Below are positions 2,069 through 16,871 of a stretch of 47,449 nt of DNA, piece by piece. This DNA comes from Rhodoferax sp. (GTDB lineage Bacteria > Pseudomonadota > Gammaproteobacteria > Burkholderiales > Burkholderiaceae_C). Made by a program: the position numbers and the translations under genes. Every line of letters begins with the position of its first letter. The stretch's first letter is position 1. Location: assembly GCF_023701345.1 (NCBI RefSeq), contig NZ_JAMPXE010000005.1, positions 1 through 47,449 of the forward strand, written 5' to 3'. The notes under the pieces were generated by a model, which saw only the letters and a list, made by a program, of their open reading frames with translations, had not been told where the DNA came from and did not search any database.

Positions 2069-2158
2069 GCACTGACCGAGGCCGCGCGGGTTCGTTATGG
2101 GGGCGGCCCGTTGATGTTTGAAGTTCCGGACGGCAACCGGCTTTCGGCGACGGACTAA
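2069..2158 (+). pseudogene. VOC-family (glyoxalase/bleomycin-resistance fold) C-terminal relic
   Basis: Thirty codons, open to TAA, translate to ALTEAARVRYGGGPLMFEVP and DGNRLSATD. The GGGPLMFEVPDGNRL pattern looks like the last strand and metal-ligand Glu region of VOC-superfamily proteins. There is no start codon, ribosome site or N-terminal half upstream, since the DUF4148 gene ends at 2058. It therefore looks like the truncated tail of a gene once present here. It overlaps the end of the SSB-like relic on the other strand, suggesting two genes that once converged at this point. The family assignment rests on about 20 residues and is tentative. Confidence 0.45.
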
Positions 2159-2281
2159 ACCCCCGACTCGGTGCTCACCACCCGGTGCGCCACCAGGTCC
2201 AGCGCGGGCTTGGTGTTGCCCTGCTTGTCGGTCCAGACCTTGGGGTTCAGGTGGCCGGCGGCGGCCAGCGAGTCGCCGTCA
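2155..2281 (-). pseudogene. SSB-like gene relic (C-terminal ~40 codons)
   Basis: Read on the minus strand this gives DGDSLAAAGHLNPKVWTDKQ, GNTKPALDLVAHRVVSTESG, V and a stop. It is the same as the C-terminal part of the intact SSB-like protein at 13029-13331 except for the last few residues (VSTESGV here, LSTEPGF there). Homology stops abruptly at 2281, 18 bp beyond the stop codon of the neighbouring kinase gene, so the N-terminal 60 codons are missing. The different last codons show that this is not simply a recent copy of the whole right-hand gene. Confidence 0.75.
2179..2281. repeat. Direct repeat, left copy (103 bp, identical to 13053-13155)
   Basis: This 103 bp segment is identical, base for base and in the same orientation, to 13053-13155. 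Outside that core, similarity continues leftwards with a few mismatches to about 2160 and ends sharply at 2281 on the right. The two copies bracket the whole RLP catabolic island (2299-12954), with 10,874 bp between corresponding bases. Confidence 0.9.
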
Positions 2282-2298: not shown

Positions 2299-3585
2299 TC
2301 ATGTCAGCATCGTGAAGGCTTTGCTAAAAAAGTCGTCAGTCCCAAAGTTGCCGGACTTGAGCGTCAAGTGCAGCCCCTCATGTGACGTGACCTCGGTTTG
2401 GGCATGGCACCAAGGGACACCGGGGTCAATTTGCGGCCCGATCTTCATTTGTGTGATGGCCAGGGCTTGCACGCAGGCCCCCGAGGTTTCGCCGCCGGCC
2501 AGCACCAACTGGCGCACACCCAAATCCACCAGGCCACGCGCAATCGCAGCCAGCGTGCGCTCTACCAATGCGCCGGCCGTTTCCACACCCAACATCCCCT
2601 GCACGGACTTGACGGCCGTTGCGTCGGCCGACGAATAAATGAGCACCGGTCCTTGAGCTAACAAGGGCTCAGCCCAGGCCAACGCATCGGCCACCACATT
2701 GACGCCGGTAGATTCTTGGGTGGCAATCTGCAAGGGATCAATCTCTAATGCGGGAAGACCCGCCTGGATGAATGCCATCACCTGCCGATTGGTTACCAGC
2801 GAACAGCTACCCGACACCACAGCTTTCAGGCCAGTGGCGGCGGGCAAGGCGCTGGCCGCGCTGGAGGGCACAATGCCAAAATTGGCGGGCAGGCCAATCG
2901 CAACGCCCGAGCCTGCCGTCACCAACGGCATGTCTTTAAGCGCTGGTCCCAGGCGGATCAGGTCGTCGTTGGAAATCGCATCAACCACTGCCAGATTCAC
3001 GCCTTGGGCACGCAGTTGCTCAATGCGCGCACGAATGGCCGCCTCGCCCTGTGCCACGACCTTGTAGTCAATCAAGCCGACCTTGCGGCGGCATTGCCCC
3101 TGCAACACGCGCACCAAGTTGGCATCGGTCATGGGTGTGAGCGGGTGATTCTGCATTCCGCTTTCATTGAGCAGAACGTCAGCGACAAACAAATGACCCT
3201 TGAAAACAGTGCGCTGGTTGTCCGGAAATGCCGGCGTGGCGATGGTGAAGTCGCTGCCTGGCAGGTCGGCCAGTGCGTCCATCAGGGCCTCGGTCACCGG
3301 GCCAATATTGCCGTGCGCCGTGCTGTCAAAAGTGGAGCAATACTTGAAATAGATTTGCTCCGCACCCTGGGTCTGCAGCCAATGAAGTGCTGCCAGTGAC
3401 TGAGCAATGGCCTCCTCTTTGGGAAGCGTGCGCGACTTGAGTGCGATCACCACGGCATCCGTATCGGCGTCCAGCGGCTGCGCTGGCGTACCCATCGCCT
3501 GCATCACCCGCATACCGGAGCGCACCAAGTTGTTGGCCAGATCGGTTGCGCCGGTAAAGTCATCCGCAATGCAGCCGAGTTTCAT
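2299..3585 (-). CDS. otnK: DUF1537 four-carbon acid sugar kinase, OtnK-like (3-oxo-tetronate 4-kinase)
   Basis: Cytoplasmic ATP-dependent kinase of the DUF1537 family, 428 residues, the usual length. The N-terminal substrate domain starts with CIADDFTGATDLANNLVRSG, the family signature. FKYCSTFDSTAHGNIGP and TPAFPDNQRTVFKGHLFV follow, the latter characteristic of the OtnK branch. The C-terminal nucleotide domain ends in LAGGETSGACVQALAI. The start MKLGC is chosen because its ATG overlaps the upstream stop as ATGA, indicating translational coupling; the frame is open for 26 further codons upstream but those residues overlap the previous gene. OtnK enzymes phosphorylate 3-oxo-tetronates made from threonate or erythronate. 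The usual partners OtnC (aldolase) and OtnI (isomerase) are absent, so the true substrate may differ. It is the last gene of the island operon. Confidence 0.85.
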   Translation of the reverse strand: MKLGCIADDFTGATDLANNLVRSGMRVMQAMGTPAQPLDADTDAVVIALKSRTLPKEEAIAQSLAALHWLQTQGAEQIYFKYCSTFDSTAHGNIGPVTEALMDALADLPGSDFTIATPAFPDNQRTVFKGHLFVADVLLNESGMQNHPLTPMTDANLVRVLQGQCRRKVGLIDYKVVAQGEAAIRARIEQLRAQGVNLAVVDAISNDDLIRLGPALKDMPLVTAGSGVAIGLPANFGIVPSSAASALPAATGLKAVVSGSCSLVTNRQVMAFIQAGLPALEIDPLQIATQESTGVNVVADALAWAEPLLAQGPVLIYSSADATAVKSVQGMLGVETAGALVERTLAAIARGLVDLGVRQLVLAGGETSGACVQALAITQMKIGPQIDPGVPWCHAQTEVTSHEGLHLTLKSGNFGTDDFFSKAFTMLT

Positions 3586-4256
3586 GACTGCACCTGCTGT
3601 TGAATATCCACGCGCTGTGCCAGATCGCGCATGAGCAGGGGCGGACTGGCCAGCACGGGGCATGGCAACTCCTCCTGCAGCAGATCCCGCAAATGCGCCA
3701 AGGACGCCTGAGCTAAAACGATCACGTCAACTGAGGGTGCCAACTCGGCCGCAGACAGTCGCACCAGCTGGTCATGGCGTGTACGATCTCCCGCCATCAG
3801 CGCTGCGTACGCGTCAGCATTGACCATTGGGTGAACGCTCACCGACATGCCCTGCTCGGCAGCGTGCGACTGCAACAGCGCAGTGCTGGGTTCAACCGTA
3901 CTGCTCGCGGTGCAAAGCAAGCCAATTCGTCGGCCTTCGCGCACGGCTTGCGCCGCCATGGGGTCATCGATTTTGAGCACAGGTTGACGAACCAGTCGAC
4001 GCGCGATGTCCACTGCTGGCGAGGTCGAGGAGCAGGTCACAACGATCAAGTCAGGCTGCGCGTCCGACGCGAGCAAGATTTGTTCGACAACGCGGCGGTA
4101 TACCGGCTCCTGCGGTCCGCCGCGCAGCAGGTCCTTGAGCAAACTCTCGTTCAAGATGTGAAAGCACTCGACATCTGGCATCTCTGTACGCATCAGCTGT
4201 CGAAAAGTGTCAGAGAGAAATCCGACCGTGTGGATAAAAGCAATCTTTGTCGTCAT
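3582..4256 (-). CDS. Asp/Glu racemase-superfamily protein with a single catalytic-type cysteine
   Basis: A 224-residue protein of the aspartate/glutamate/hydantoin racemase fold. The first half carries VVTCSSTSPAVDIARRL with Cys75, the position of the first catalytic cysteine. At the second catalytic position the sequence is VIVLAQASLAHL, so no cysteine is present there. Two-base racemases need both, hence a racemase reaction is unlikely. Relatives with one cysteine include arylmalonate decarboxylase and maleate isomerase, although arylmalonate decarboxylase keeps the other one. A role in isomerising or decarboxylating a keto- or hydroxy-acid of the island pathway is an inference. Its stop overlaps the start of the OtnK-like kinase by four bases, so the two are probably translated together. 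Confidence 0.75.
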   Translation of the reverse strand: MTTKIAFIHTVGFLSDTFRQLMRTEMPDVECFHILNESLLKDLLRGGPQEPVYRRVVEQILLASDAQPDLIVVTCSSTSPAVDIARRLVRQPVLKIDDPMAAQAVREGRRIGLLCTASSTVEPSTALLQSHAAEQGMSVSVHPMVNADAYAALMAGDRTRHDQLVRLSAAELAPSVDVIVLAQASLAHLRDLLQEELPCPVLASPPLLMRDLAQRVDIQQQVQS

Positions 4257-4310
4257 TAAAACGTTCCAAAAAATGGGTTGTTCTGGCCAGCACCGGCCGA
4301 CAGGGAAGGA

Positions 4311-4919
4311 CTATCCGAGATGTGCGTCGTCGCCCCAGCTCTCGATTGACCACTGATCGCCATCAATACCGATCCAGTTGATTCCGGCATTCGGAATCGG
4401 ATAGTCACGAGGGGCCTCAAGCGGCAGCTGACGGGCCCGTCGGTAGATGACATCCAGCGCCCCGCCATGGGTCACCACCACAATGGTTTGTCCCTCATGC
4501 TCACGCACCAAGTGTTCAATGCAGTCCAATACACGCACCTGGTGTTGTCGACGGCTTTCCCCACCGCCCGGTGATGCGTAATCTGGATCGTGGCTTTCAA
4601 TTGCCCGGGCGTCTTCTTCATATTGGAGGGATATCTCCTCAAGGGTCATCCCTTCGCAGCGTCCAAAATGTCGCTCTCGCAATGCCTGCAAAAGGATGAT
4701 CGGCAAATGCAAGACCTCAGAAATGGGCTGCGCCGTTTGGCGGGCACGCAACAAGTCGCTGCTGTACAACGCCGTCGCGGTCGAGCCAACAAAATGGCGC
4801 CCCACTGCCGTCGCTTGTGCCTCACCTTTGGCGTTAAGTGCCAGGTCCATTTGACCTTGCAAACGCAGCTCAATATTCCAGTCCGTCTCACCGTGGCGAA
4901 CAAAACATATACGAGTCAT
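4311..4919 (-). CDS. Histidine phosphatase family protein (phosphoglycerate mutase-like)
   Basis: A 202-residue cytoplasmic phosphatase of the histidine phosphatase superfamily. CFVRHGETDWN at the N-terminus contains the RHG motif whose His is phosphorylated during catalysis. LYSSDLLRARQTAQPI, LRERHFGRCEGMTLEEI (acid residue) and VVVTHGGALDVIYR (second catalytic His) are all in place. Residues match the broad-specificity phosphatase branch rather than glycolytic mutase. It sits 54 bp upstream of the racemase-fold gene and is separated from the TRAP genes by a 165 bp AT-rich gap. A plausible job is removing phosphate from a sugar-acid phosphate or phosphoglycolate made by the island pathway; the substrate cannot be read from sequence. 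Confidence 0.85.
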   Translation of the reverse strand: MTRICFVRHGETDWNIELRLQGQMDLALNAKGEAQATAVGRHFVGSTATALYSSDLLRARQTAQPISEVLHLPIILLQALRERHFGRCEGMTLEEISLQYEEDARAIESHDPDYASPGGGESRRQHQVRVLDCIEHLVREHEGQTIVVVTHGGALDVIYRRARQLPLEAPRDYPIPNAGINWIGIDGDQWSIESWGDDAHLG

Positions 4920-5084
4920 TTTTTATCGCCGCAAATTCAGGGTTAAACATTAGTATAGTGAAGTTAGTGAATTAATTTCTTTCGAAATCATTAAAGAATC
5001 ACCAACTTCGATTCAACATTTCTCATGCAATTTTAAATTTTGATTTAGTTCAATATCAAATGAACAAAAGAAACTAAATTTATT

Positions 5085-6350
5085 CTACTTAATAACCCAA
5101 GTCGTCATGCTGGGGATAAAAGTAACCAGCATCAAGACGAATAACATGACACCAACAAAAGGCAGAGCGGCAAGACTCAGGCGCGACAACGAAACTTTTG
5201 AGATATTACTGGCCACATAGAGAGCCGTCCCCACAGGAGGCGTCAATAAACCGATCGTCAGGTTGATGACCATCATGAGGCCAAACTGGGTAAGATTGAC
5301 ATCCAAGGAGACGGCAACAGGCACAAGAACAGGAACCAAAATAATAATTGCCGGACCAAGGTCCATGAATACGCCAACTGCCAGCAAGAGAAGATTGATC
5401 ATGAGCAATATGGCATATTTATTATCAGAAATGCTCAAGATCGTTTCACTGATTTGCTGTGGAATTTGCTCACTTGCCAAAATCCAACCAAACAAGGAAG
5501 CCGTGGCAATCAGAAAACTGATGACCGCCGTGTTGCTCACCGAGCTACTGAAGATCTCTGGGAAATCGCTCCAGGCCAGTTCCTTGTAAACAAATTTGCC
5601 AATGAAAATCGCATAGACAGCGGCAACAACACCGCCTTCGGTTGGTGTAAAGACACCCATGCGAATTCCAACAATAATGATGATTGGAAGCAACAAAGCC
5701 CACACTGAATCTTTGACACATACCCATTTTTGAGCACGGGTCATTGTTGACTCAGCTGGATAGTTTCGTTTTTTTGCGTGGAAGTGAGAAACGACCATGA
5801 AGCCCGCAGCTATTAATATTCCTGGCAAAAATCCAGCCATGAACAAGTCGCCAATAGATGTGCCTGAAGCGACGCCATAAAGAATCATGGCAATACTTGG
5901 GGGAATAATAAGGCCAATACTTCCTGACGCAGCAACCAGCGCAGCTGAAAATGGAAGTTCATACCCTCTTTTTTTCATTTCAGGAACCATCAGTGTGCCA
6001 ATGGCCGCTGTATCTGCAACACCGGAACCGGATATGCCACCCATGATCACACCAGATATGGACACCACATGGGCCAAGCTGCCACGGAGCCCACCCACCA
6101 GCGCGAGGGCGAAATTGATGATCCGGCTGGTGATGCCGCCTTTCTCCATCACTGAACCAGCAAGCATGAAAAACGGGATCGCCATCAATGGAAAAGAGTC
6201 CACTCCGGCAAACATTCGTTGAATAACGACCTGCATCGGGTAATCTGCTACAAAAAACATTGCAGCCAGGGAAGATATACCCAAAACAAAGGAAATGGGA
6301 ACGCCAACCAATACAAGAACGACAAACACACTGAACAAAACTAAAGTCAT
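5085..6350 (-). CDS. dctM: TRAP transporter large membrane subunit (DctM/TRAP-L)
   Basis: A 421-residue inner-membrane protein with about a dozen hydrophobic helices, the translocation subunit of a TRAP (Na+-coupled) carrier. The family landmarks are visible: PISFVLGISSLAAMFF near the N-terminus, IPFFMLAGSVMEKGGIT, GGISGSGVADTAAIGT, ASGSIGLIIPPSIAMILYGV and the late LTIGLLTPPVGTALYVASNI. Its start lies 4 bp after the end of the small subunit gene, so the two are co-translated. The base composition is noticeably AT-rich compared with the kinases at either end of the island. Substrate is unknown; the gene context suggests a sugar acid. Confidence 0.95.
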   Translation of the reverse strand: MTLVLFSVFVVLVLVGVPISFVLGISSLAAMFFVADYPMQVVIQRMFAGVDSFPLMAIPFFMLAGSVMEKGGITSRIINFALALVGGLRGSLAHVVSISGVIMGGISGSGVADTAAIGTLMVPEMKKRGYELPFSAALVAASGSIGLIIPPSIAMILYGVASGTSIGDLFMAGFLPGILIAAGFMVVSHFHAKKRNYPAESTMTRAQKWVCVKDSVWALLLPIIIIVGIRMGVFTPTEGGVVAAVYAIFIGKFVYKELAWSDFPEIFSSSVSNTAVISFLIATASLFGWILASEQIPQQISETILSISDNKYAILLMINLLLLAVGVFMDLGPAIIILVPVLVPVAVSLDVNLTQFGLMMVINLTIGLLTPPVGTALYVASNISKVSLSRLSLAALPFVGVMLFVLMLVTFIPSMTTWVIK

Positions 6351-6354
6351 GGCA

Positions 6355-6813
6355 TCAGCGTCTGGCTAAGACGTCCTCATAAAAATTCTTTACTAAATAC
6401 GCAAAAATCAACATGCCGGCAAGAGGCAAGACCACATAGACATAATTCATTGGTATTTCCAAGGCTGAACTTGCCTGTCGAGAGCCGCGTGCAACAAATT
6501 TAAAACCGCCATAAATCAATACAGAAGTAAAAATCATCATTGATAAGTAACTTATCGAAAGCAAAATCTTTTGTGGAAAAATAGGCAAGCTCTTCAGAAT
6601 CAAATCCAAACTGACGTGCTGTCTGTTTCTGACAGCCATTGCTGCACCTAGAAATGTCATCCAAACAAATATGTAGCGCCCAGCCTCTTCAGACCAGGAA
6701 AGTGAATTTGAAAATGCGTACCTCGCAACAACTTGGGTAAAAATTATTGCCACCATGGCCAACATCAACAAGAAGCACACTGTTCTTAAAATAACGTAGA
6801 ACCTTTTTTCCAA
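6355..6813 (-). CDS. dctQ: TRAP transporter small membrane subunit (DctQ/TRAP-S)
   Basis: A 152-residue protein with four predicted membrane helices (about residues 10-32, 45-65, 85-108, 125-145), the usual DctQ layout. It includes the conserved SWSEEAGRYIFVWMTFLGAA segment and NRQHVSLDL. It associates with the large subunit encoded immediately downstream. Upstream, an 85 bp gap with a strong stem-loop separates it from the binding-protein gene. Composition is AT-rich like its partners. Confidence 0.93.
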   Translation of the reverse strand: MEKRFYVILRTVCFLLMLAMVAIIFTQVVARYAFSNSLSWSEEAGRYIFVWMTFLGAAMAVRNRQHVSLDLILKSLPIFPQKILLSISYLSMMIFTSVLIYGGFKFVARGSRQASSALEIPMNYVYVVLPLAGMLIFAYLVKNFYEDVLARR

Positions 6814-6836
6814 TTTTTTCTCCTTGACCAGTAAAT

Positions 6837-6878
6837 AAAATTGACACCATCGGAACTGTTCAAGATGATGTCAATTTT
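6837..6878 (-). terminator. Stem-loop between dctP and dctQ (partial terminator or mRNA stabiliser)
   Basis: The arms AAAATTGACACCATC (6837-6851) and GATGATGTCAATTTT (6864-6878) pair over 15 bp with one mismatch around a 12-base loop. On the transcribed minus strand the hairpin is followed by an A/T-rich run beginning TTTTATTT. It lies just after the stop codon of the solute-binding protein gene, where a terminator-like stem commonly lowers expression of the membrane subunits relative to the binding protein. The T-run occurs on both strands, so it could act in both directions. Confidence 0.7.
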
Positions 6879-6898
6879 TTATTTGTAAAAATTTATAT

Positions 6899-7879
6899 TT
6901 ACTTGCCGGCTTCGATAATTTTGTTGTAAAGATCAATGCCGTATTTTTCGGCGAACTGCTTGTGAACCGTGCGAGCCAGTTTTGCCCATTCTGTGGTATC
7001 TGGTTTGGTGACTTTCATGCCTTTTGCCTGCAAGTCTTTCAACAAGTTGTCAGATTTTTCAAAGACAAGCTTGTTCTCATATTGAGTCGCCTCGGCAGCA
7101 GCTTCTTTAACCGCCTTCTGTTGGTCGGCACTCAATTTCAACCAGGCTTTATTGCTCATGGCAATGAGAACATACTCATACTTGTGATTTGTCATGGCAA
7201 TATATTTCTGCACTTCATATATTTTGCCAGCATGAATAAATGGGACTGGATTTTCTTGTGCTTCAATCACATTTTGCTGCAATCCTGTATAGACCTCACC
7301 CCATGCCATGGGCGTAGGATTGGTGCCCATGGCTTTCCAGGCCGCAATGATGGGGGGAATTTCAGGAACCCGAATCTTGAGTCCTTTGATGTCATTCAAT
7401 GAATTAACCGGTTTGTTGGTCGTCAATTGACGAGGACCACGCTCCCAGAAAGCCAATCCTCGTATATCGGAACTTTTCAGCAATTTATCAAGGAGTTGCT
7501 CACCGATCGGACCGTACATGACCTTGCGTAAATGTGTTTCGTCTTTGAACAGGTACGGCAGTTCCATGATTTGAATTGAAGGTTCAAAATTTCCAAGAAC
7601 ACCTGCAATCAGGGCAAAATCGACGGAGCCAATTTGCATGCCTTCAGCCATGTCCCGGTCGTTGCCGATTGTTGAGTTGGGAAATACCTTGATTTGTACT
7701 TCACCTTTTGTTTTGGCATCAACCAATTCAGCAAACTTGAGGGCACCGAGTTGCCACAAATCGGACTCATTTTGAACGTGACCCAGTTTCATCACGATTG
7801 GTTTTTTGACCGGTTCAGCGGCAAATGCAGTGCAAGCGACAGCCAGACCGACAATTAAAGACAAGGCAAACTTTTTCAT
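6899..7879 (-). CDS. dctP: TRAP transporter periplasmic solute-binding protein (DctP family)
   Basis: A 326-residue protein with a signal peptide (MKKFALSLIVGLAVACTAFA, cleaved before AEP), so it works in the periplasm. The mature part shows DctP features: MKLGHVQNESDLWQLGALKF, VFPNSTIGNDRDMAEGMQIG, and LKGLKIRVPEIP-like DIKGLKIRVPEI, whose Arg normally salt-bridges the carboxylate of the ligand. WGEVYTGLQQNVIEAQENP follows and is typical. The ligand is therefore expected to be an organic or sugar acid. It is first of the transporter genes; a 13-bp perfect palindrome lies about 80 bp upstream of its start. Confidence 0.95.
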   Translation of the reverse strand: MKKFALSLIVGLAVACTAFAAEPVKKPIVMKLGHVQNESDLWQLGALKFAELVDAKTKGEVQIKVFPNSTIGNDRDMAEGMQIGSVDFALIAGVLGNFEPSIQIMELPYLFKDETHLRKVMYGPIGEQLLDKLLKSSDIRGLAFWERGPRQLTTNKPVNSLNDIKGLKIRVPEIPPIIAAWKAMGTNPTPMAWGEVYTGLQQNVIEAQENPVPFIHAGKIYEVQKYIAMTNHKYEYVLIAMSNKAWLKLSADQQKAVKEAAAEATQYENKLVFEKSDNLLKDLQAKGMKVTKPDTTEWAKLARTVHKQFAEKYGIDLYNKIIEAGK

Positions 7880-7955
7880 AAATTCTCCAATTAAATTAAT
7901 TATTTAACACAAACAAACGCAAAATTATCACAATATCTTTATATTCTCCTTATGG

Positions 7956-7968
7956 TGAATAATATTCA
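7956..7968. promoter_or_regulatory. Palindrome TGAATAATATTCA upstream of dctP (possible operator)
   Basis: TGAATA-A-TATTCA is a perfect inverted repeat in the 123 bp AT-rich gap between the dehydrogenase and dctP. It is about 77 bp before the dctP start on the same transcript direction. It could bind a regulator or mark an internal promoter of the transporter genes. No regulator is identified for it; in AT-rich DNA a palindrome of this size can also be chance. Confidence 0.3.
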
Positions 7969-8002
7969 TCGATTCGGATATGGAATTAAAAGGTGAATGA
8001 GA

Positions 8003-9022
8003 TTAAATTTCAATCATTACTTTGACGACGTGCTCCTTTTTCTGACTTAAGACGTCAAGGCCTTCCTGCGTATGCTCAAGATCCATCGTCTGCGTAATGA
8101 AGTCTGTCAAATCGAGGCCGTTATTGATCATGTCTGCAGCTTCCTTGAAATCTTTCGTTTCATAGGTCATCGCACCGTACATGGTGAGTTCGTTGATGAC
8201 GATCTGATACGAATAAAAGGGTATTTTTTCGGTAATCATGGCAATAATGCCGATCTCGCCACGCTTTCTAACGCATGCGGTAGCCTGGTCAACGATATTG
8301 TTGGCACCGGCTGCAATCAGCGCGAGGTCGGCCCCTCGGCCATTGGTCAGTTTTTTTACGACATCCACCACATCTGATTCAAGGGGATTGATAGCGAGGG
8401 TTGCACCATGTTTGAGTGCCATGTCACGGTTGAATTCAGCCGTGTCGGTACAGACAACGTGTTTGTAGCCCATTTGCTTGGCAACAACCAAGGTCAGGAG
8501 ACCGATGGTTCCAGAACCCAGGATGACCAGGCAGTCCTTTTCCTGGACGGTCGATTTTCTCAAGGCACGCACGGCCACGGCAAGCGGCTCTATCATGGTG
8601 CCCATTTTGTAGCTCACCTCGTCATTCAATTTGTGTATGGTGACCTCGGGTGCATTGAAATACTCCACAAAAACACCGATCCACTTGGCAGTTCCGGGAA
8701 CAACCTTGGTACTGCATAAATTCACGAGGCCTTGTTTGCAGTATTCGCATACGCCACAACCATATTGCGGTTCAACCGTGACACGATCGCCGATCTTGAC
8801 TGTTTTGACATTCTTGCCAATTTCAACGACATCTCCTGCAACCTCGTGCCCCAGGATGGCCGGCGGTTTACGGAAGGCATGGGTTCCTCTGAAAAGATGC
8901 AGATCCGAGCCGCAAACCCCAACGGTTTTTACTTTGATCAAAACCTCATCATCTTTGATGACGGGTCGATCGACCTGCTGAATGGAAACCTTTTCAAGAT
9001 CAGTGACGAGTGCTGCTTTCAT
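8003..9022 (-). CDS. Zinc-dependent medium-chain alcohol/polyol dehydrogenase
   Basis: A 339-residue cytoplasmic NAD(P)-dependent dehydrogenase of the sorbitol/threonine dehydrogenase type. Catalytic zinc ligands are visible: Cys in GVCGSDLHLFRG, His-Glu in LGHEVAGDVVEIG, and the Glu in MIEPLAVAVRAL. The structural zinc site has the four cysteines of CGVCEYCKQGLVNLC. The Rossmann motif is VILGSGTIGLL. It would oxidise a hydroxyl of the imported compound to a ketone, giving the 3-oxo acid that DUF1537 kinases use; this link is inferred from context. It lies between the kinase gene (140 bp away) and dctP (123 bp away). Its AT-rich codon use matches the TRAP genes and differs from the kinase and RLP. 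Confidence 0.9.
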   Translation of the reverse strand: MKAALVTDLEKVSIQQVDRPVIKDDEVLIKVKTVGVCGSDLHLFRGTHAFRKPPAILGHEVAGDVVEIGKNVKTVKIGDRVTVEPQYGCGVCEYCKQGLVNLCSTKVVPGTAKWIGVFVEYFNAPEVTIHKLNDEVSYKMGTMIEPLAVAVRALRKSTVQEKDCLVILGSGTIGLLTLVVAKQMGYKHVVCTDTAEFNRDMALKHGATLAINPLESDVVDVVKKLTNGRGADLALIAAGANNIVDQATACVRKRGEIGIIAMITEKIPFYSYQIVINELTMYGAMTYETKDFKEAADMINNGLDLTDFITQTMDLEHTQEGLDVLSQKKEHVVKVMIEI

Positions 9023-9162
9023 TGCATTTTTTCCTATATAAATTAAATTTGAATATTTGAACTGGACATGTGGTTAACGCCGGTCAATTCATGTCTTTTG
9101 GTCGGCCGTGGTTTGATTTCATGATTTCTATCCTTGCTAGAGTTAATTGCCGGGTAACTACG

Positions 9163-10548
9163 TCAGGTATTGCCATGGAGCGCTTTTACAAAATAAGACT
9201 CGTCGCCCATTTGTCCGCCCTTCAAGGCAATCTGCAACGTATTAAGGTGCATTTGTTTCGAGATGACCCGGCATAGTGGTGCGCCAGGCGCAAGGCGGGC
9301 TTCAATCTCAAGGGCGTCAGGCGCCAGTACGCGGGTAATCTGGCTTGACGTGTCGCCCCCGGACAACAACAGGCGGCGCAATGGCGTTGCGAGCAGGATG
9401 GCCTTGACGATCAAACCGAGTCGCAGGCCAAGCAGGCGACCACCACTGTGTTTTGCCTCGTCTCTTGACTTGCCGAGTAACACCAGTGATCCAATCATGG
9501 CTTCAATGCGAGGGTCTTGTGGACCACGCGCGGTATGCAACATGACGCTTTTGCCTTGCTGAAGCTGTTCAAGAACATCCGCGACCAAGGTGGATGCCGC
9601 AAACTCCCAATGTTGCTCATCGACGAGAGCACAGGCATTTATCGGCATGTCGATGAAGCCGGCAGCTATGGCCGCATCAATTTGAAGCGCACTGAGCGAC
9701 GATGCGCTGCCCGAGATGGCGAGAACTTGGTCAACCCCGGCAAAGGATTCGTACTTTGGCGTGGGAGGAGTTTGAGGGCCGCTTTCACGCCACCACTGTG
9801 TCAGCGCGTATTCGACGCCGGAGGAACCGACGACAAAAACCGTTCCCTGCCGATACGCATGGGCGTCAATCAGCCTGCCCACTTCGGTCATATGCGCATG
9901 GGTCAAGCCGTCCAAGAGCACTGCGGCAGCTTGTGCGCTGGTCAGTACCGCCCACGCATCGTCCATTGCGGCGCGATCGTTGGCGAAGTTCGACACCACA
10001 AACTTGTCGATGGCCAGACTGGTTTGACGACCCAGGAATTGCGTCAGATCACTCTCGTCGATCGGCGTGACGGGATGCACGCTCATGATGGGGTGCTTGT
10101 CAATGCGATACGTCAGCCCGTCGGTGCCCGATCTTGCGAACAGGTTTCCAAAAAGGCAGTACCTGGCAAGCGCAGGAGTGCCGGCCACGATCGGTATAGG
10201 GGCTGTGCCAAAAATCCTGCGCCCGATTTCCATGACCCGACCCATGCTGCCAATGGTCGGCGAACTGTCAAACGTGGAACAGACCTTGTAATGCACGATG
10301 GGTGCCTTGAGATCCGCCAGTGACTGGAAGATCGACGGCAGCATTGCGTCCATTTCCGAGGGTGACATGCCGCGGCTGTCGCCAGCGATTCCAATGGCAT
10401 CAAAACCCGCGAATTCCTGTCGCGTTTCGGGTGTCGGGGCGCTCAGAAACAGCGCGCAGCGAAGGCCCGCAAAAGCAAGAACTTCCAGCGCATCGGTGGA
10501 CCCGGTGAAGTCGTCGCCATAGAAGGCGAGGCGAGGTGAAGCGTTCAT
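9163..10548 (-). CDS. DUF1537 sugar-acid kinase, OiaK-like (RLP-partner type)
   Basis: A 461-residue cytoplasmic kinase of the DUF1537 family but clearly different from the OtnK-like one at 2299. The N-terminus is LAFYGDDFTGSTDALEVLAF, with HYKVCSTFDSSPTIGSMGRV and VVGSSGVEYALTQWW; the C-terminal nucleotide domain has LLLSGGDTSSQITRVL. This branch, with FYGDDFTGSTDALE, is known to sit next to RuBisCO-like protein genes, for example 3-oxo-isoapionate kinase OiaK of D-apiose catabolism. The start MNASPRL has a GGAA-type site 8 bp before it; an ATG five codons upstream (10563) is also possible. The RLP gene ends about 20 bp upstream, so the two are co-transcribed. Confidence 0.85.
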   Translation of the reverse strand: MNASPRLAFYGDDFTGSTDALEVLAFAGLRCALFLSAPTPETRQEFAGFDAIGIAGDSRGMSPSEMDAMLPSIFQSLADLKAPIVHYKVCSTFDSSPTIGSMGRVMEIGRRIFGTAPIPIVAGTPALARYCLFGNLFARSGTDGLTYRIDKHPIMSVHPVTPIDESDLTQFLGRQTSLAIDKFVVSNFANDRAAMDDAWAVLTSAQAAAVLLDGLTHAHMTEVGRLIDAHAYRQGTVFVVGSSGVEYALTQWWRESGPQTPPTPKYESFAGVDQVLAISGSASSLSALQIDAAIAAGFIDMPINACALVDEQHWEFAASTLVADVLEQLQQGKSVMLHTARGPQDPRIEAMIGSLVLLGKSRDEAKHSGGRLLGLRLGLIVKAILLATPLRRLLLSGGDTSSQITRVLAPDALEIEARLAPGAPLCRVISKQMHLNTLQIALKGGQMGDESYFVKALHGNT

Positions 10549-10565
10549 ACAGTTTTCCGTCATGA

Positions 10566-11843
10566 TCAGGTGTGACTGAACTTGATGAGCGCTTTTTGGA
10601 GGGCGGGGTGCGTCTTCGCGAACACTTCCAGGCTGACGCCAGCCACGGCAGCTTCCCAGCCCTCGCGCATGCTCAAAACACCGGCAGCAATGCCGTCCAG
10701 GTGCCCCAGGATCCCACCACCCGCGAGGTGCATCAGATCCGTCGACCCGAGGTTGGCATAAAGATCCGGCGCTTGCGAGGCCCACTGTCCCGACGAGAAC
10801 ACCGGCATCAGGGGTGTGACACCCGCAAAAGGTGCCAGACAAGACCTGGCAGACGCGATGACCGAATCGTCTGATTCGCTGAATTTGCCGCGAATGCCGT
10901 TGACGTGAAGATGGTCCACACCCACCAGACGCCAAAGTTTTTGATAGGCAGCGAACGAAAATCCAAGATGCGGATGACGCGAGAATGCGCCCCAGCCGTT
11001 TCGATGGCCGTGAATTGGCAGCTCAGTATGCTTGCGCAGATGTTCTACACCAGCAAAGCCAACCCAATTCGCGCTCACCATGACACAGGTGCCCCCCGCA
11101 GCCAGCACCGCATCATGACGACGCAACATCTCGTCGATGCTGCCCGAGATATTAAAGGCATACATCGGCATGCGCCCAAGCCGGTCAGCGTGCCGCTTCA
11201 ATACAGGCATGACAGCATGGAGCCGCTCGTCAAAAGGGGCGTACGGCGGATCGGCGAGCAGTTCGTCATCCTTGATGAAGTCAATATCGGCCGCGCACAA
11301 GGCCTCGACCATCTCGGCCGTCTCCGCCGCTGATAGCCCGATGCTCGGCTTGATGATGGTGCCAATGAATGGCCTGCCGTGGATCCCCGCTTTTTTTCTT
11401 GTGCCTTCAATCCCGAATTTTGGCCCAGGAAATTGGCTTGCGTAGGTCGAAGGCATGTCGATATCGAGCAGCTTCAGACCCGTGACTTCGCCTAACTCAA
11501 AGAGGTTGCCGGCAACGGTGGCCAACAGCGTGGAGATGTTGGGCCCGACGTTCGCGATTGGGAATGCGATTTCGACCTCAGCGCGATGGTACATACCCTT
11601 GTGCGCCCGTCGTTCGACAAAGGCACTGCGCAGTGACGGTTCGAACACAGGAGGCAGGGTATCGATGCGTGTGACACGGGCACGAGAACGTGATTTGAGC
11701 GCATCAGTTTCGCCAGGCAGGGACATGAAGGTGCCACTTGATTGCTCGCCAGCAATGATGTCGGCCGCCTTCTCTGTCGGCACGGAACTTTCAATAAAGT
11801 ACCGCGCCGTGAATTCGGGGCGGCAAGAGTTTTGCTTGGACAT
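10566..11843 (-). CDS. RuBisCO-like protein (form IV RLP), possible sugar-acid-phosphate decarboxylase or transcarboxylase/hydrolase
   Basis: A 425-residue RuBisCO large-subunit homologue without carboxysome or CBB-cycle neighbours. The catalytic framework is well kept: Lys165 in GTIIKPSIGL (RuBisCO K175), Lys191-Asp193-Glu194 in DFIKDDELLADPP (carbamate lysine and Mg ligands, K201/D203/E204), HGHRNGWGAFSRHP around residue 280, and Lys320 in VNGIRGKFSESDD. So it should bind Mg and activate as a carbamate, unlike RLPs that lost the lysine. Together with an OiaK-like kinase directly downstream it resembles OiaC/OiaX of apiose catabolism, which act on 3-oxo-isoapionate 4-phosphate. Apionate oxidoisomerase and lactonase genes are not present, so the substrate is open. 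It is first in the island operon, divergent from the LysR gene. Confidence 0.88.
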   Translation of the reverse strand: MSKQNSCRPEFTARYFIESSVPTEKAADIIAGEQSSGTFMSLPGETDALKSRSRARVTRIDTLPPVFEPSLRSAFVERRAHKGMYHRAEVEIAFPIANVGPNISTLLATVAGNLFELGEVTGLKLLDIDMPSTYASQFPGPKFGIEGTRKKAGIHGRPFIGTIIKPSIGLSAAETAEMVEALCAADIDFIKDDELLADPPYAPFDERLHAVMPVLKRHADRLGRMPMYAFNISGSIDEMLRRHDAVLAAGGTCVMVSANWVGFAGVEHLRKHTELPIHGHRNGWGAFSRHPHLGFSFAAYQKLWRLVGVDHLHVNGIRGKFSESDDSVIASARSCLAPFAGVTPLMPVFSSGQWASQAPDLYANLGSTDLMHLAGGGILGHLDGIAAGVLSMREGWEAAVAGVSLEVFAKTHPALQKALIKFSHT

Positions 11844-11979
11844 TCTTTGGAGCTACTGTGTGTGATATTTTTGAACAGAAAATTTTTTATAGAAATGAAT
11901 TTTTTTGTCTTCTACCTGCTCTATGGCTCGAATAATATGATTCACAATCCAATTAATCAATCGATATGAATTCTGTGAT

Positions 11980-11998
11980 TTGTGCGGAAAACTCACAA
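11980..11998. promoter_or_regulatory. LysR-type operator candidate in the RLP/LysR divergent promoter region
   Basis: The 226 bp gap 11844-12069 is AT-rich and divergent. TTGTG-N9-CACAA is a dyad that contains the LysR T-N11-A pattern (T at 11983, A at 11995). It is about 70 bp upstream of the regulator start, the normal place for an autoregulatory recognition site. A further CACAA half-site stands at 11943-11947, nearer the RLP promoter. No cofactor-binding evidence can be read from DNA. Confidence 0.5.
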
Positions 11999-12069
11999 TA
12001 TGATGGGGAAAACCCTAAGCCTCAGGGGGCACCTTTGACATGAGTACCTACTGAGCCGGAGAACGAGTC

Positions 12070-12954
12070 ATGAAGATACCCAAACCATCACTCAATGCGC
12101 TACGTGCCTTCGAGGCAACTGCCCGCCTTCGCAGCTTCACGGATGCGGCAGACGAACTGTCAGTCACGCACGGAGCGGTGAGCCGACATGTGCGGTCGCT
12201 GGAAGAGACGCTCGGAATCCAGTTGCTTCGACGCAATGCGCATTCCACCGACACAACACCGCAGGGCTTGCGACTGGCCGAAGGCTTGACTTCAGCCTTC
12301 AAACAAATACAGAACAGCATCGAACAATTGATGTCCGGGCCAGTGACACTTTCATGCTCAGAGTCGATCATGATGTACTGGCTGATTCCACGAATTTCTC
12401 GGTTTCGGCAACTGCATCCGATGGTGGATCTTCGCGTCAACATGAGTTCAAGTCTGGAGGACTTTGCACGTGAAAACATCAGCGTTGCGATTCGTCTCTC
12501 GACCAGAGAACTCCCAAAGGAGGCATTGAAGGTGGATGTCGTTGAAGAATGGATCGGGCCGGTTTGCACCGCCGAATACATGCAGTCAGCGCGTCTTCAA
12601 TCGGTTGAGGACTTAAGTCGAACACGTTTACTTGCAACCAGGACAAGGCCCTTGGCTTGGTCGGAATGGTTCCGCACCTGCGGTCATGTCAGCAATCGGC
12701 TAAAGATTGCCGATTCGTTCGAACATTTCTATCTCATGATTCAGGCCGCAAAGTGTGGACTCGGGGTCGCGAATGTTCCAAGAATGCTGGTACGCGATGA
12801 CCTGAACGCAGGGACGCTTGTCGCTCCCTTTGGGTTTGTGCAGGGACCCAACAAGGTTTCGTTGTGGATCGCTGCCCATCAGAGTGCCAGACCCGAGACA
12901 ATCGCCGTCGAAGACTGGTTGATCGAAGAACTCAGACGGGCGGAAAAAGATTAG
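12070..12954 (+). CDS. LysR-family transcriptional regulator (GcvA-like) of the RLP island
   Basis: A 294-residue regulator. The N-terminal winged helix-turn-helix is clear: SLNALRAFEATARLRSFTDA, ADELSVTHGAVSRHVRSLEE and TLGIQLLRR. The effector domain begins around residue 92 (VTLSCSESIMMYWLIPRISR) and belongs to the GcvA/AmpR-like branch. The ribosome site GGAGAACGAG precedes the ATG. It is divergent from the RLP operon, and the shared region contains a T-N11-A dyad, so it most likely controls that operon in response to the imported acid or a pathway intermediate. It is the last gene of the island before the right-hand direct repeat. Confidence 0.9.
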   Translation: MKIPKPSLNALRAFEATARLRSFTDAADELSVTHGAVSRHVRSLEETLGIQLLRRNAHSTDTTPQGLRLAEGLTSAFKQIQNSIEQLMSGPVTLSCSESIMMYWLIPRISRFRQLHPMVDLRVNMSSSLEDFARENISVAIRLSTRELPKEALKVDVVEEWIGPVCTAEYMQSARLQSVEDLSRTRLLATRTRPLAWSEWFRTCGHVSNRLKIADSFEHFYLMIQAAKCGLGVANVPRMLVRDDLNAGTLVAPFGFVQGPNKVSLWIAAHQSARPETIAVEDWLIEELRRAEKD

Positions 12955-13028: not shown

Positions 13029-13331
13029 TTAAAACCCCGGCTCGGTGCTGAGCACCCGGTGCGCCACCAGGTCCAGCGCGGGCTTGGTGTTGCCCTGCTT
13101 GTCGGTCCAGACCTTGGGGTTCAGGTGGCCGGCGGCGGCCAGCGAGTCGCCGTCACGCAGCGCCATCAGCACGGCACAGGGCGCCTCATCAAAGGCAATC
13201 AGGTTCACCATCAGGTGCTCACCCTCGCTGCTCTGCGCGCGCACCCGCGCCACCACAAAGCTGCTGTCGCCCTTGCCCTGGCGTCGCTCCGGGTCGCCGA
13301 TCAAGCGGCCGGCAATCAATCCGTCAATCAT
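13029..13331 (-). CDS. Single-stranded DNA-binding-like OB-fold protein
   Basis: A 100-residue protein starting MIDGLIAGRLIGDPERRQGK, with FVVARVRA, HLMVNLIAFDE and DGDSLAAAGHLNPKVWTDKQ. This is the strand pattern of a short SSB/PriB-type OB fold, but it lacks the acidic C-terminal tail (DDDIPF) of true SSB and ends LSTEPGF. Similar short proteins are found in Comamonadaceae, usually labelled SSB. The ATG was chosen because the homology begins there; the frame is open far upstream. A role in nucleic-acid binding is likely; which process it serves is unknown. Its 3' third is duplicated at 2155-2281. Confidence 0.75.
   Translation of the reverse strand: MIDGLIAGRLIGDPERRQGKGDSSFVVARVRAQSSEGEHLMVNLIAFDEAPCAVLMALRDGDSLAAAGHLNPKVWTDKQGNTKPALDLVAHRVLSTEPGF
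13053..13155. repeat. Direct repeat, right copy (103 bp, identical to 2179-2281)
   Basis: It lies inside the 3' third of the intact SSB-like gene. It is identical to the left copy over 103 bp and in the same orientation. It marks the right border of the RLP island, starting 99 bp after the LysR stop codon. Confidence 0.9.
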
Positions 13332-15584: not shown

Positions 15585-16871
15585 TTATCGGGCACCAAAC
15601 AGCAGATTGGGCAACCAGAGCGATAACTGCGGAATAAACGACACCAGCAAAAGTACCAGAATGTTGCCCGCCAAAAACGGCATGATTTCCTTGATCACGG
15701 AAGAAAGTGGCGTTTTGGCGATATTTGCACACACAAACAGACAAATACCGACCGGCGGCGTCGTCAGGCCGATCATCAAGTTCAAGACGGCAAAGGTTGC
15801 AAAATGGATCGGGTCGATGCCGACGCCAACCGCGACCGCGAGCAAGGGTGGGAACAGAATGATCAACGCGGCGATGGTTTCCATGAACATGCCCACGATC
15901 AACAGCAGAATATTGATCAGCAGGATGATCACATATTTGTTGGTGCTGATGGAGAGCATGGTCTTGGCGATGGTTTGCGGAATTTCCTCGTTGGCCATGA
16001 TCCAGCCAAACACATTCGCAACGCCCACCAGTGCCAACAGCGCGGCAGACGTGATGGCGCTGTCGATCATGATTTTCGGCACATCGCGCAAGGTGATGCC
16101 CTTGTAAATGTAGACCCCGATCACAAAAGCATAAACACAAGCCAGGATGGCGGTCTCAGTCGGCGTGACCACGCCACTGAGCAGGCCACCGATGATCAAG
16201 GCGGTCAACATCAGGGCCCAGAACGCCCCCAGGAACGAATGCCACAACTCCTTCCAGCCTTTCCAGGGCTGCCGCGGGTAATTTTTTTTCACCGCGATGA
16301 TGTAACAGACGAGCATCATGCCCAGACCAAGCATGATGCCTGGGATCGCACCCGCCATGAACATGCGACCCACCGAGACGCCGCTCAGTGCACCCACAAT
16401 GATCATCGGCACACTGGGCGGGATGATGGGTCCGACGGTCGATGCGGCAGCCGTAATGGCAGCGGCGAAGCTGACCGGGTAGCCTGCTTTCTTCATGCCC
16501 GGGATCATGACGGCGCCAATGGAGGCCGCTTCAGCAACGGCCGTTCCGGAAATGCCGGCAAACAACATGGACCCAGCCACGTTGGTCAGGCCCAGTCCAC
16601 CACGGACCCAGCCCACGCCGGCACTGGCGAAGCGGATGATGCGGTCGGTAATGCCGCCACCGTTCATCAGGCTGCCTGCCATGATGAAACCCGGGATGCA
16701 CAGCAGGACAAATGAATCCACGCCGGAAAATATTTTTTGTGAGAAAACCACCAGGGGTATGTCGGCATAAAAAACCAGATACGCGGCCGACGACACCCCA
16801 AGGCAGATGGCCACCGGCACACCGATGACCAGACACAGGATGAAGGTACCAAACAAAATAGCAATGCCCAT
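15585..16871 (-). CDS. dctM: TRAP transporter large membrane subunit (DctM/TRAP-L), second system
   Basis: A 428-residue polytopic inner-membrane protein. It shows PVAICLGVSSAAYLVF, LLCIPGFIMAGSLMNGGGIT, GISGTAVAEAASIGAVMIPG, STVGPIIPPSVPMIIVGAL and LNLMIGLTTPPVGICLFVCA, the TRAP-L landmarks. It follows the small subunit gene by 8 bp and belongs to a dctP-dctQ-dctM operon divergent from the GntR/ManD operon. This context suggests import of a hexonate such as mannonate, gulonate or idonate, or a uronate. GC-rich codon use is typical of the host, unlike the TRAP genes of the RLP island. Confidence 0.95.
   Translation of the reverse strand: MGIAILFGTFILCLVIGVPVAICLGVSSAAYLVFYADIPLVVFSQKIFSGVDSFVLLCIPGFIMAGSLMNGGGITDRIIRFASAGVGWVRGGLGLTNVAGSMLFAGISGTAVAEAASIGAVMIPGMKKAGYPVSFAAAITAAASTVGPIIPPSVPMIIVGALSGVSVGRMFMAGAIPGIMLGLGMMLVCYIIAVKKNYPRQPWKGWKELWHSFLGAFWALMLTALIIGGLLSGVVTPTETAILACVYAFVIGVYIYKGITLRDVPKIMIDSAITSAALLALVGVANVFGWIMANEEIPQTIAKTMLSISTNKYVIILLINILLLIVGMFMETIAALIILFPPLLAVAVGVGIDPIHFATFAVLNLMIGLTTPPVGICLFVCANIAKTPLSSVIKEIMPFLAGNILVLLLVSFIPQLSLWLPNLLFGAR

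Follow-up and report, generated by a model that had tools for sequence, protein, structure and literature searches.

A probable Rhodoferax sugar-acid operon with a RuBisCO-like protein and two DUF1537 kinases: a tentative OiaT-like route to 3-phosphoglycerate

Contig NZ_JAMPXE010000005.1 of Rhodoferax sp. (the 47,449 nucleotides (nt) analysed are called the window throughout) carries an island of ten genes that encodes a RuBisCO-like protein (RLP) together with two kinases of the DUF1537 family, here designated K1 and K2. Our preferred reading, which we put forward tentatively and judge to have a little less than an even chance of being right, is that the island is an operon for a sugar acid taken up by a tripartite ATP-independent periplasmic (TRAP) transporter, in which the RLP cleaves a phosphorylated, probably branched 3-oxo acid in the manner of OiaT to yield 3-phosphoglycerate. 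That a TRAP importer is encoded together with an RLP, an acid-sugar kinase and a dehydrogenase resembling threonine 3-dehydrogenase suggests that the acid is oxidised to its 3-oxo form, phosphorylated and cleaved at a C–C bond. Among related loci, ApnO-like genes found in the clade of this RLP (clade A) suggest a 2-hydroxymethyl 3-oxo acid such as 3-oxo-isoapionate as intermediate, and pyruvate kinase genes in the same clade suggest a phosphoglycerate product. The ten genes lie where they had originally been predicted, nine running leftward from 11843 to 2299 and a LysR gene diverging at 12070–12954:

2299..3585, minus strand: K1, 3-oxo-tetronate kinase OtnK (DUF1537 family; NCBIfam NF043035), overlapping rac by 4 nt
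3582..4256, minus strand: rac, protein of the Asp/Glu racemase superfamily (Pfam PF01177) that retains one catalytic cysteine of two
4311..4919, minus strand: histidine phosphatase superfamily branch 1 protein, CobC/GpmB-like (Pfam PF00300)
5085..6350, minus strand: TRAP transporter large permease DctM
6355..6813, minus strand: TRAP transporter small permease DctQ
6899..7879, minus strand: TRAP solute-binding protein DctP
8003..9022, minus strand: zinc-dependent dehydrogenase of the medium-chain dehydrogenase/reductase (MDR) type, L-threonine 3-dehydrogenase-like (Pfam ADH_N and ADH_zinc_N)
9163..10563, minus strand: K2, OiaK-like DUF1537 kinase (NF042436), its start 2 nt behind the RLP stop
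10566..11843, minus strand: RLP of clade A, 425 amino acids (PF00016, tree and active-site residues)
12070..12954, plus strand: LysR-type regulator, divergent
2156..2281: partial duplicate of an ssb-like gene's 3′ end, one unit of a direct repeat of 126 nt (97%)
13030..13155: second unit of this repeat, across the island from the first and forming the 3′ end of the ssb-like gene itself

Under this reading, the TRAP importer would take up a sugar acid, and the zinc dehydrogenase, the proposed 3-dehydrogenase of the imported acid, would oxidise its C3 hydroxyl directly to a 3-oxo (beta-keto) acid, thereby filling the slot of the ApnO-like enzyme or short-chain dehydrogenase/reductase (SDR) of related loci. 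K2 would phosphorylate the terminal hydroxyl of the 3-oxo acid. The RLP would then act like OiaT, its substrate being a phosphorylated 2-hydroxy-2-hydroxymethyl-3-oxo acid taken as an analogue of the six-carbon intermediate of RuBisCO, and would split it into 3-phosphoglycerate and a two-carbon acid, either via decarboxylation and recarboxylation or by direct hydrolysis. K1 would serve a dispensable side branch for an unbranched 3-oxo-tetronate, ending in an OtnC-like aldolase that may be the one encoded beside K1 in a relative (genome G027) and elsewhere in the window's own genome, and rac would be an isomerase or epimerase of one oxo acid in either branch. We infer the substrate, the order of the steps, the products and the roles of the dehydrogenase, rac and the phosphatase.

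The RLP carries the RuBisCO_large domain PF00016 (247 bits), within which lie the carbamate lysine and magnesium ligands K191/D193/E194. All five residues that had been noted, Lys165, Lys191, Asp193, Glu194 and Lys320, are present and align to K166, K191, D193, E194 and loop-6 K329 of form II RuBisCO, the match of Lys320 to K329 being placed by eye. Its best NCBIfam model is OiaX (NF042437), at 464.6 bits against a cut-off of 700, and the positive control, the Rhizobium gallicum RLP, scored 759 bits; no OiaT model was among its NCBIfam matches. When the OiaX model was run over 300 genomes of the order, none scored above the cut-off. A quick tree of 120 RLP and RuBisCO rows placed the window RLP in clade A (52 rows, support 99; 54 rows and support 97 for a wider clade A), which comprises mostly Burkholderiales with some Pseudomonas, Chimaeribacter and Alphaproteobacteria. 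The three rows called OiaX by NCBI stand apart from it (support 100), as do the RLPs of apionate clusters and a rac-linked clade of 13 rows from Verrucomicrobiota, Bacteroidota and Planctomycetota. Duplicate stretches and most RuBisCO rows were left out of the tree, three form II rows and L177 being kept, and L170 and L177 were flagged by the program as long branches that join; loci L088–L092, L095, L100, L153, L154, L156–L176, L187 and L190 were in the tree and outside the counts given below, and L006 and L007 entered only the tree and the residue count. In keeping with the original prediction, under which the RLP should not group with OiaX, it thus falls in a separate, supported clade; the score below the cut-off, the separate clade and the residue differences described next led us to reject its identification as OiaX itself.

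The active site is nearly that of RuBisCO throughout the clade. In form II numbering, E48, T53, N111, K166, K191, D193, E194, H287, R288, H321, S368, G370, G393 and the loop-6 lysine are kept in 53 of 53 clade-A rows, and G394 in 50 of them. The ApnO-linked rows share this residue set (14 of 14, except for G370, kept in 11), whereas the three OiaX rows have D48, G111, Q321 and a C or G at 368. From these alignments, the kept set may mark cleavage or transcarboxylation and the changed set plain decarboxylation. OiaC, named as an RLP in the original prediction, is not known to be one. Passages of PMC6302742 describe two RLPs of apiose breakdown, one a decarboxylase and the other a transcarboxylase/hydrolase. 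The wider RLP group extends to haloarchaeal plasmids: in L153 a DUF1537 kinase gene lies behind the RLP gene, with rac, SDR and zinc dehydrogenase genes nearby, and in L190 no kinase lies directly behind the RLP, a four-carbon acid sugar kinase being encoded approximately 8 kb away.

To compare gene content, we drew on related loci, of which 80 of 140 were kept, with calls made by BLAST identity to proteins of annotated plasmid loci, at thresholds of our own choosing and over loci of unequal length. Clade A is represented by 52 loci (L038–L069, L071–L087, L094, L147 and L149), after removal of L070 (a contig-end piece of G027), L148 (the same record as L071), L150 (the same RLP as L083) and L093 (a partial RLP); the 53 rows of the residue counts include L150. 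The comparison groups are ApnO-linked loci (12 for gene content, 14 for residues), OiaX loci (three) and rac-clade loci (13). All 52 clade-A loci have K2, and in 51 of them it follows the RLP directly in the gene list; in the remaining one a LysR open reading frame comes first in that list. OiaK (NF042436) is the best model for K2, at 415 bits against a cut-off of 700, the positive control, OiaK of P. sprentiae, reaching 822 bits. The description of K1 as OtnK-like and K2 as OiaK-like therefore stood for K1 and held for K2 as regards its best model, but with a score far under the cut-off. A LysR gene (at least 45% identity) accompanies the pair in 39 of the 52 loci.

The oxidoreductase that accompanies RLP and K2 varies. 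An SDR (at least 35% identity) was found in 43/52 clade-A, 2/12 ApnO-linked, 1/3 OiaX and 0/13 rac-clade loci; at the stricter threshold of at least 55% it occurs in 39/52 clade-A loci, always within 6 kb of the RLP. The corresponding figures for an ApnO-like gene are 4/52, 12/12, 2/3 and 0/13, the RLPs of the four clade-A loci being 70–75% identical to that of the window. A zinc dehydrogenase of the window type is present in three clade-A loci, all Rhodoferax, so that one of the three oxidoreductases occurs in 48 of 52, with the SDR overlapping the others in one ApnO-like locus and one Rhodoferax locus; the four clade-A loci without any of them are contigs of 4.6–9.6 kb. Neither the zinc dehydrogenase nor the binding protein had a match at E 1e-70 in plasmids. 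With the L148 protein as query, no ApnO-like gene was found in the window's own genome, which is 90.6% complete. Across six genomes of the genus, such a gene was found in none of the four with a clade-A RLP and in both of those with an apionate-cluster RLP, approximately 6 kb from the RLP in one (G017, contig C314) and on another contig in the other (G057). We take these proteins to be ApnO-like from their place beside ApnL and OiaK in P. sprentiae, whose locus encodes OiaK (822 bits, cut-off 700) and ApnL (770 bits, cut-off 750).

Pyruvate kinase is encoded in 12/52 clade-A loci, on the RLP–K2 strand in 11 and on the opposite strand in L071, and in none of the 12 ApnO-linked, three OiaX or 13 rac-clade loci. 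Enolase was found in 2/52 clade-A loci and in 0/28 of the other three RLP groups. Plasmid p2 of Cupriavidus pinatubonensis (L148) has, within 21 kb, a clade-A RLP and its kinase, two enolases, pyruvate kinase, phosphoenolpyruvate carboxylase, NADP glyceraldehyde-3-phosphate dehydrogenase, OtnK/OtnC and an ApnO-like gene.

K1 exceeds the cut-off of the OtnK model NF043035 (616 bits against 350). The L-threonate route, as outlined in a passage of PMC12540250, consists of LtnD, OtnI, OtnK and OtnC. The original statement that OtnC and OtnI are lacking is true of the island and not of the genome, where both are encoded elsewhere: on contig C121 the gene for an OtnC-like aldolase (217 bits, just below the cut-off of 250) adjoins that for OtnI (393 bits, cut-off 325), and contig C197 carries LtnD (465 bits, cut-off 350) and a second OtnK (630 bits, cut-off 350). 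In the related genome G055 the same genes form a single run, ltnD-otnK-otnC-otnI. Since this set is available elsewhere in the genome, the island K1 need not depend on the RLP. The earlier proposal that the RLP substitutes for OtnC is accordingly not favoured, given in addition that an OtnC-like gene (214 bits, cut-off 250) lies directly behind K1 in G027, that RLPs of the clade pair with an OiaK-type kinase in 52/52 loci and with OtnK in just three (one of them the L038 remnant described below), and that K1 can be missing (G044) or decayed (L038) while the RLP, K2, dehydrogenase, importer and rac persist. OtnK was also found in one of the 12 ApnO-linked loci. As the genome's only possible OtnC replacement, the RLP was rejected as a candidate because an OtnC-like aldolase is present elsewhere. 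As anticipated, the two kinases are of different types, which suggests two branches.

The description of rac as a one-cysteine protein is correct for its catalytic positions, Cys75 being kept and Gln183 occupying the other, but further, non-conserved cysteines exist. Cys75 is invariant and the second catalytic position is Gln183 in all 19 rac proteins compared, which come from RLP loci of Rhodoferax (five), of three further bacterial phyla (thirteen) and of a haloarchaeon (one). They also have in common H9, T10 and AQAS at the site where two-base racemases carry their second cysteine. An ordinary two-base racemase was rejected on account of this replacement of cysteine by glutamine. The AlphaFold model (mean predicted confidence, pLDDT, 92.5) has the Asp/Glu/hydantoin racemase fold, with Foldseek matches to 3s81 and 2eq5, and matches arylmalonate decarboxylase less well. 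Contexts were read for 8 of the 80 plasmid records with a rac match. In Haloprofundus and Haladaptatus, outside RLP loci, rac relatives (47.5% identity) adjoin an OiaK-like kinase (482–486 bits, cut-off 700) and a gene resembling fuculose/ribulose-phosphate aldolases; a Neorhizobium relative (39% identity) lies beside OtnK (524 bits, cut-off 350) and a short class II aldolase annotation; and others, in Rhizobium, Sinorhizobium and Halomontanus, have unrelated contexts. A rac profile matched 7 of 369 genomes of the class at E 1e-20, own genome included, and the matches besides the window copy are paralogues of 29–33% identity with no RLP in the 9–17 kb stretches read. Within the RLP groups, rac occurs in 3/52 clade-A loci (all Rhodoferax), 0/12 ApnO-linked, 0/3 OiaX and 13/13 rac-clade loci. 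Because most rac loci with a kinase have one of the OiaK type, rac may serve the RLP branch in spite of its overlap with K1; our guess at its role is isomerisation or epimerisation of an oxo acid. The candidate role of stand-in for OtnI only is weakened by the two haloarchaeal loci, where the kinases are OiaK-like and the aldolases not of the OtnC kind, although OtnK does adjoin rac in Rhodoferax and Neorhizobium. Elsewhere in the window's own genome, a second, distant rac paralogue (L209, G000:C185:5031-5666; approximately 32% identity to the haloarchaeal rac) lies opposite two genes that by eye resemble those of glycolate oxidase GlcE and GlcF. The Sphingobacterium phlebotomi locus L107 contains genes for a split transketolase, an FGGY kinase and a sugar ATP-binding cassette importer and, on the same strand, rac, a sodium symporter-family gene, an RLP and a kinase, a set reminiscent of apiose breakdown by way of apulose and a transketolase.

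Relatives keep the neighbourhood, as the original prediction implied, most of the gene set being present in four other Rhodoferax genomes; of the outcomes that were named as refuting that prediction, neither grouping with OiaX nor a lack of conservation was seen. This RLP was found in 4/89 genomes of the genus searched, own included (89–100% identity), a more distant RLP (53–55%) in two of the 89, and the fifth Rhodoferax genome with the island (L038) comes from another collection. LysR, RLP, K2, dehydrogenase, DctP, DctQ, DctM and rac are present in 5/5 islands and the phosphatase in four, it not being found in the G027 island. K1 is whole in three (window, G055 and G027), was not found in the island of G044, and is decayed in L038 (11876–12221, behind rac), where only residues 1–28 and 117–170 are recognisable. 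The island of the window is bracketed by the 126-nt direct repeat (97%), formed by the 3′ end of the ssb-like gene and its partial copy. The G055 island is collinear at 91% DNA identity, with only the ssb copy found in the stretch read. Insertion sites vary among relatives, so the island looks mobile: it lies beside ssb in the window and in G055 (L032), has other neighbours in G044 (L033), and in G027 (L034, L035) is split between two contig ends by a break within the RLP gene, its outer flanks holding genes that were judged by eye to be hisD-like and hisC-like. G+C content is 40–49% in the dehydrogenase and TRAP genes (5085–9022) and 54–60% in the other island genes (0.58–0.60 as a fraction in RLP, K2, rac and K1), a difference suggesting that the operon may combine two sources. 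The nearest solved structure to DctP by sequence is 4pc9; the phosphatase scores below the cut-off of all 20 NCBIfam models listed for it, as does the zinc dehydrogenase for all 23. A second gene for a TRAP large permease, at 15585–16871, is separated from the island by a peptidase-like gene.

Several observations weigh against OiaT-like cleavage to 3-phosphoglycerate. Pyruvate kinase was not seen in the stretches, unequal in length, read for 40/52 clade-A loci; RuBisCO K168 is replaced by Ser in all clade-A, ApnO-linked and rac-linked rows; the histidine phosphatase has no place in the scheme; and none of the NCBIfam models named the three ApnO-like proteins tested. We know of no assayed clade-A enzyme, and it is we who infer that the ApnO-linked clade is 'OiaT-like', with OiaT of Xanthobacter autotrophicus as reference. 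All 13 rac-clade loci combine rac, RLP and an OiaK-type kinase with no match to an ApnO-like protein, SDR or OtnK at the thresholds used (L096 and L099 have weak OtnK-like matches at a greater distance); rac, and even the RLP of those loci, may therefore use another kind of acid. Among the alternatives, it is unlikely, though by no means negligibly so, that the RLP is a plain OiaX-like decarboxylase, turning the product of K2, by loss of CO2, into a ketose phosphate of four carbons, which for 3-oxo-isoapionate 4-phosphate as substrate would be L-erythrulose 1-phosphate. The RLP–kinase order is that of the OiaX locus L184 and OiaX is the best NCBIfam match of the RLP, but its 465 bits fall short of the cut-off of 700, the clade is separate, the three OiaX rows have other residues in place of N111, H321 and S368, which this RLP retains, and pyruvate kinase is encoded in 12/52 clade-A loci. 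A bolder generalisation, in our view quite unlikely to hold as a whole, is that clade A consists of widespread RLPs that carry out the second half of the RuBisCO reaction in catabolism, converting a phosphorylated 3-keto-2-carboxypolyol, made without ApnO by a plain dehydrogenase from hamamelonate/2-carboxyarabinitol or an isoapionate-type acid, into 3-phosphoglycerate and a small acid, with the one-cysteine rac of Rhodoferax and of RLP loci in three other phyla adding an undescribed isomerisation or epimerisation.

Improbable, we think, is a substrate with six carbons, hamamelonate (2-carboxy-D-arabinitol), which the dehydrogenase or an SDR would convert into the 3-keto acid and K2 would phosphorylate at C5, leaving the RLP to perform the second half reaction of RuBisCO or its reverse. 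The attraction is that 3-keto-2-carboxyarabinitol 5-phosphate would differ from RuBisCO's intermediate only in lacking one phosphate. The clade-A locus of Bradyrhizobium elkanii, much like the OiaX-called locus of Rhizobium gallicum, has aldo/keto reductases, a lactonase, an SDR and pyruvate kinase; that lactonase, however, occurs in just 2/52 clade-A loci, neither of them Rhodoferax. Kim 2018, as PMC8914248 cites it, describes an RLP with oxygenase activity in a D-hamamelose pathway, and the citing passage, somewhat garbled, ties this RLP to 3-phosphoglycerate and glycolate. The earlier idea that the RLP replaces OtnC, with the dehydrogenase and a DUF1537 kinase supplying its substrate, a 3-oxo-tetronate 4-phosphate, keeps a slim chance. 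Rac, a DUF1537 kinase and a C–C-cleaving enzyme recur together as if RLP and aldolase were exchangeable, the cleaving enzyme being an RLP in 13/13 rac-clade loci, a class II aldolase in Haloprofundus and Haladaptatus, and one annotated as such beside OtnK in Neorhizobium. Yet the haloarchaeal aldolases score best as fuculose- or ribulose-phosphate aldolases (220–225 bits, below the cut-off) and poorly as OtnC (97–99 bits against 250), and their kinases are OiaK-like, not OtnK, scores that led us to lower slightly a chance already small. The OtnC-like and OtnI genes elsewhere in the genome, the OtnC-like gene beside K1 in G027, and the ApnO-like loci of the clade, which point to a branched substrate, also count against it. 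Least probable of all is an oxygenase forming 3-phosphoglycerate and glycolate from a pentulose phosphate and O2: the RuBisCO residues are kept and another RLP is reported to act as an oxygenase (Kim 2018, cited in passages of PMC8914248 and PMC10176493), but the fixed partner is a kinase of an acid-sugar family, a beta-keto acid route accounts for the dehydrogenase, and nothing found here indicates O2.

Few RLP functions have been assigned so far. Clade A offers a nearly complete RuBisCO active site, a constant kinase partner, few alternative oxidoreductases and a link to pyruvate kinase, so that its substrate and chemistry are directly testable, with a bearing on the origin or re-use of RuBisCO-type carboxylation and cleavage chemistry in breakdown pathways. 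Rac provides a second testable case, a one-cysteine racemase fold that recurs beside acid-sugar kinases in bacteria and archaea. The original prediction knew of no described pathway with this combination, and we found none in the literature searched, which was judged by title and the start of the abstract and had most subscription papers outside its reach.

We regard the island pathway as a variant of the OiaK/RLP kind. The OiaK/OiaT branch of D-apiose catabolism, reportedly the work of Carter 2018, shares with it the RLP–DUF1537 kinase pair (as in passages of PMC6302742), and active-site residues as in the ApnO-linked clade and an ApnO-like gene in 4/52 clade-A loci are further likenesses; the island differs in that its RLP belongs to a separate clade, no ApnO-like gene was found in its own genome, and it has a zinc dehydrogenase, a TRAP importer and the added rac, phosphatase and OtnK. 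The OiaK/OiaX branch (NF042436, NF042437) has the same RLP–kinase order, in L184, and supplies the best-scoring models, but K2 and the RLP fall under its curated cut-offs and N111, H321 and S368 differ. K1 is OtnK as in the LtnD-OtnI-OtnK-OtnC pathway for L-threonate and D-erythronate (Zhang 2016, described in a passage of PMC12540250), whereas the island is without LtnD, OtnI and OtnC and has rac overlapping K1 instead. A branched sugar is likewise degraded with the help of an RLP in the D-hamamelose pathway (Kim 2018, as cited in passages of PMC8914248 and PMC10176493), so the link of hamamelose with an RLP is not new; the island, for its part, encodes no lactonase or aldose dehydrogenase. 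Finally, rac shares the fold of the Asp/Glu/hydantoin racemase superfamily (PF01177), with one catalytic Cys replaced by Gln.

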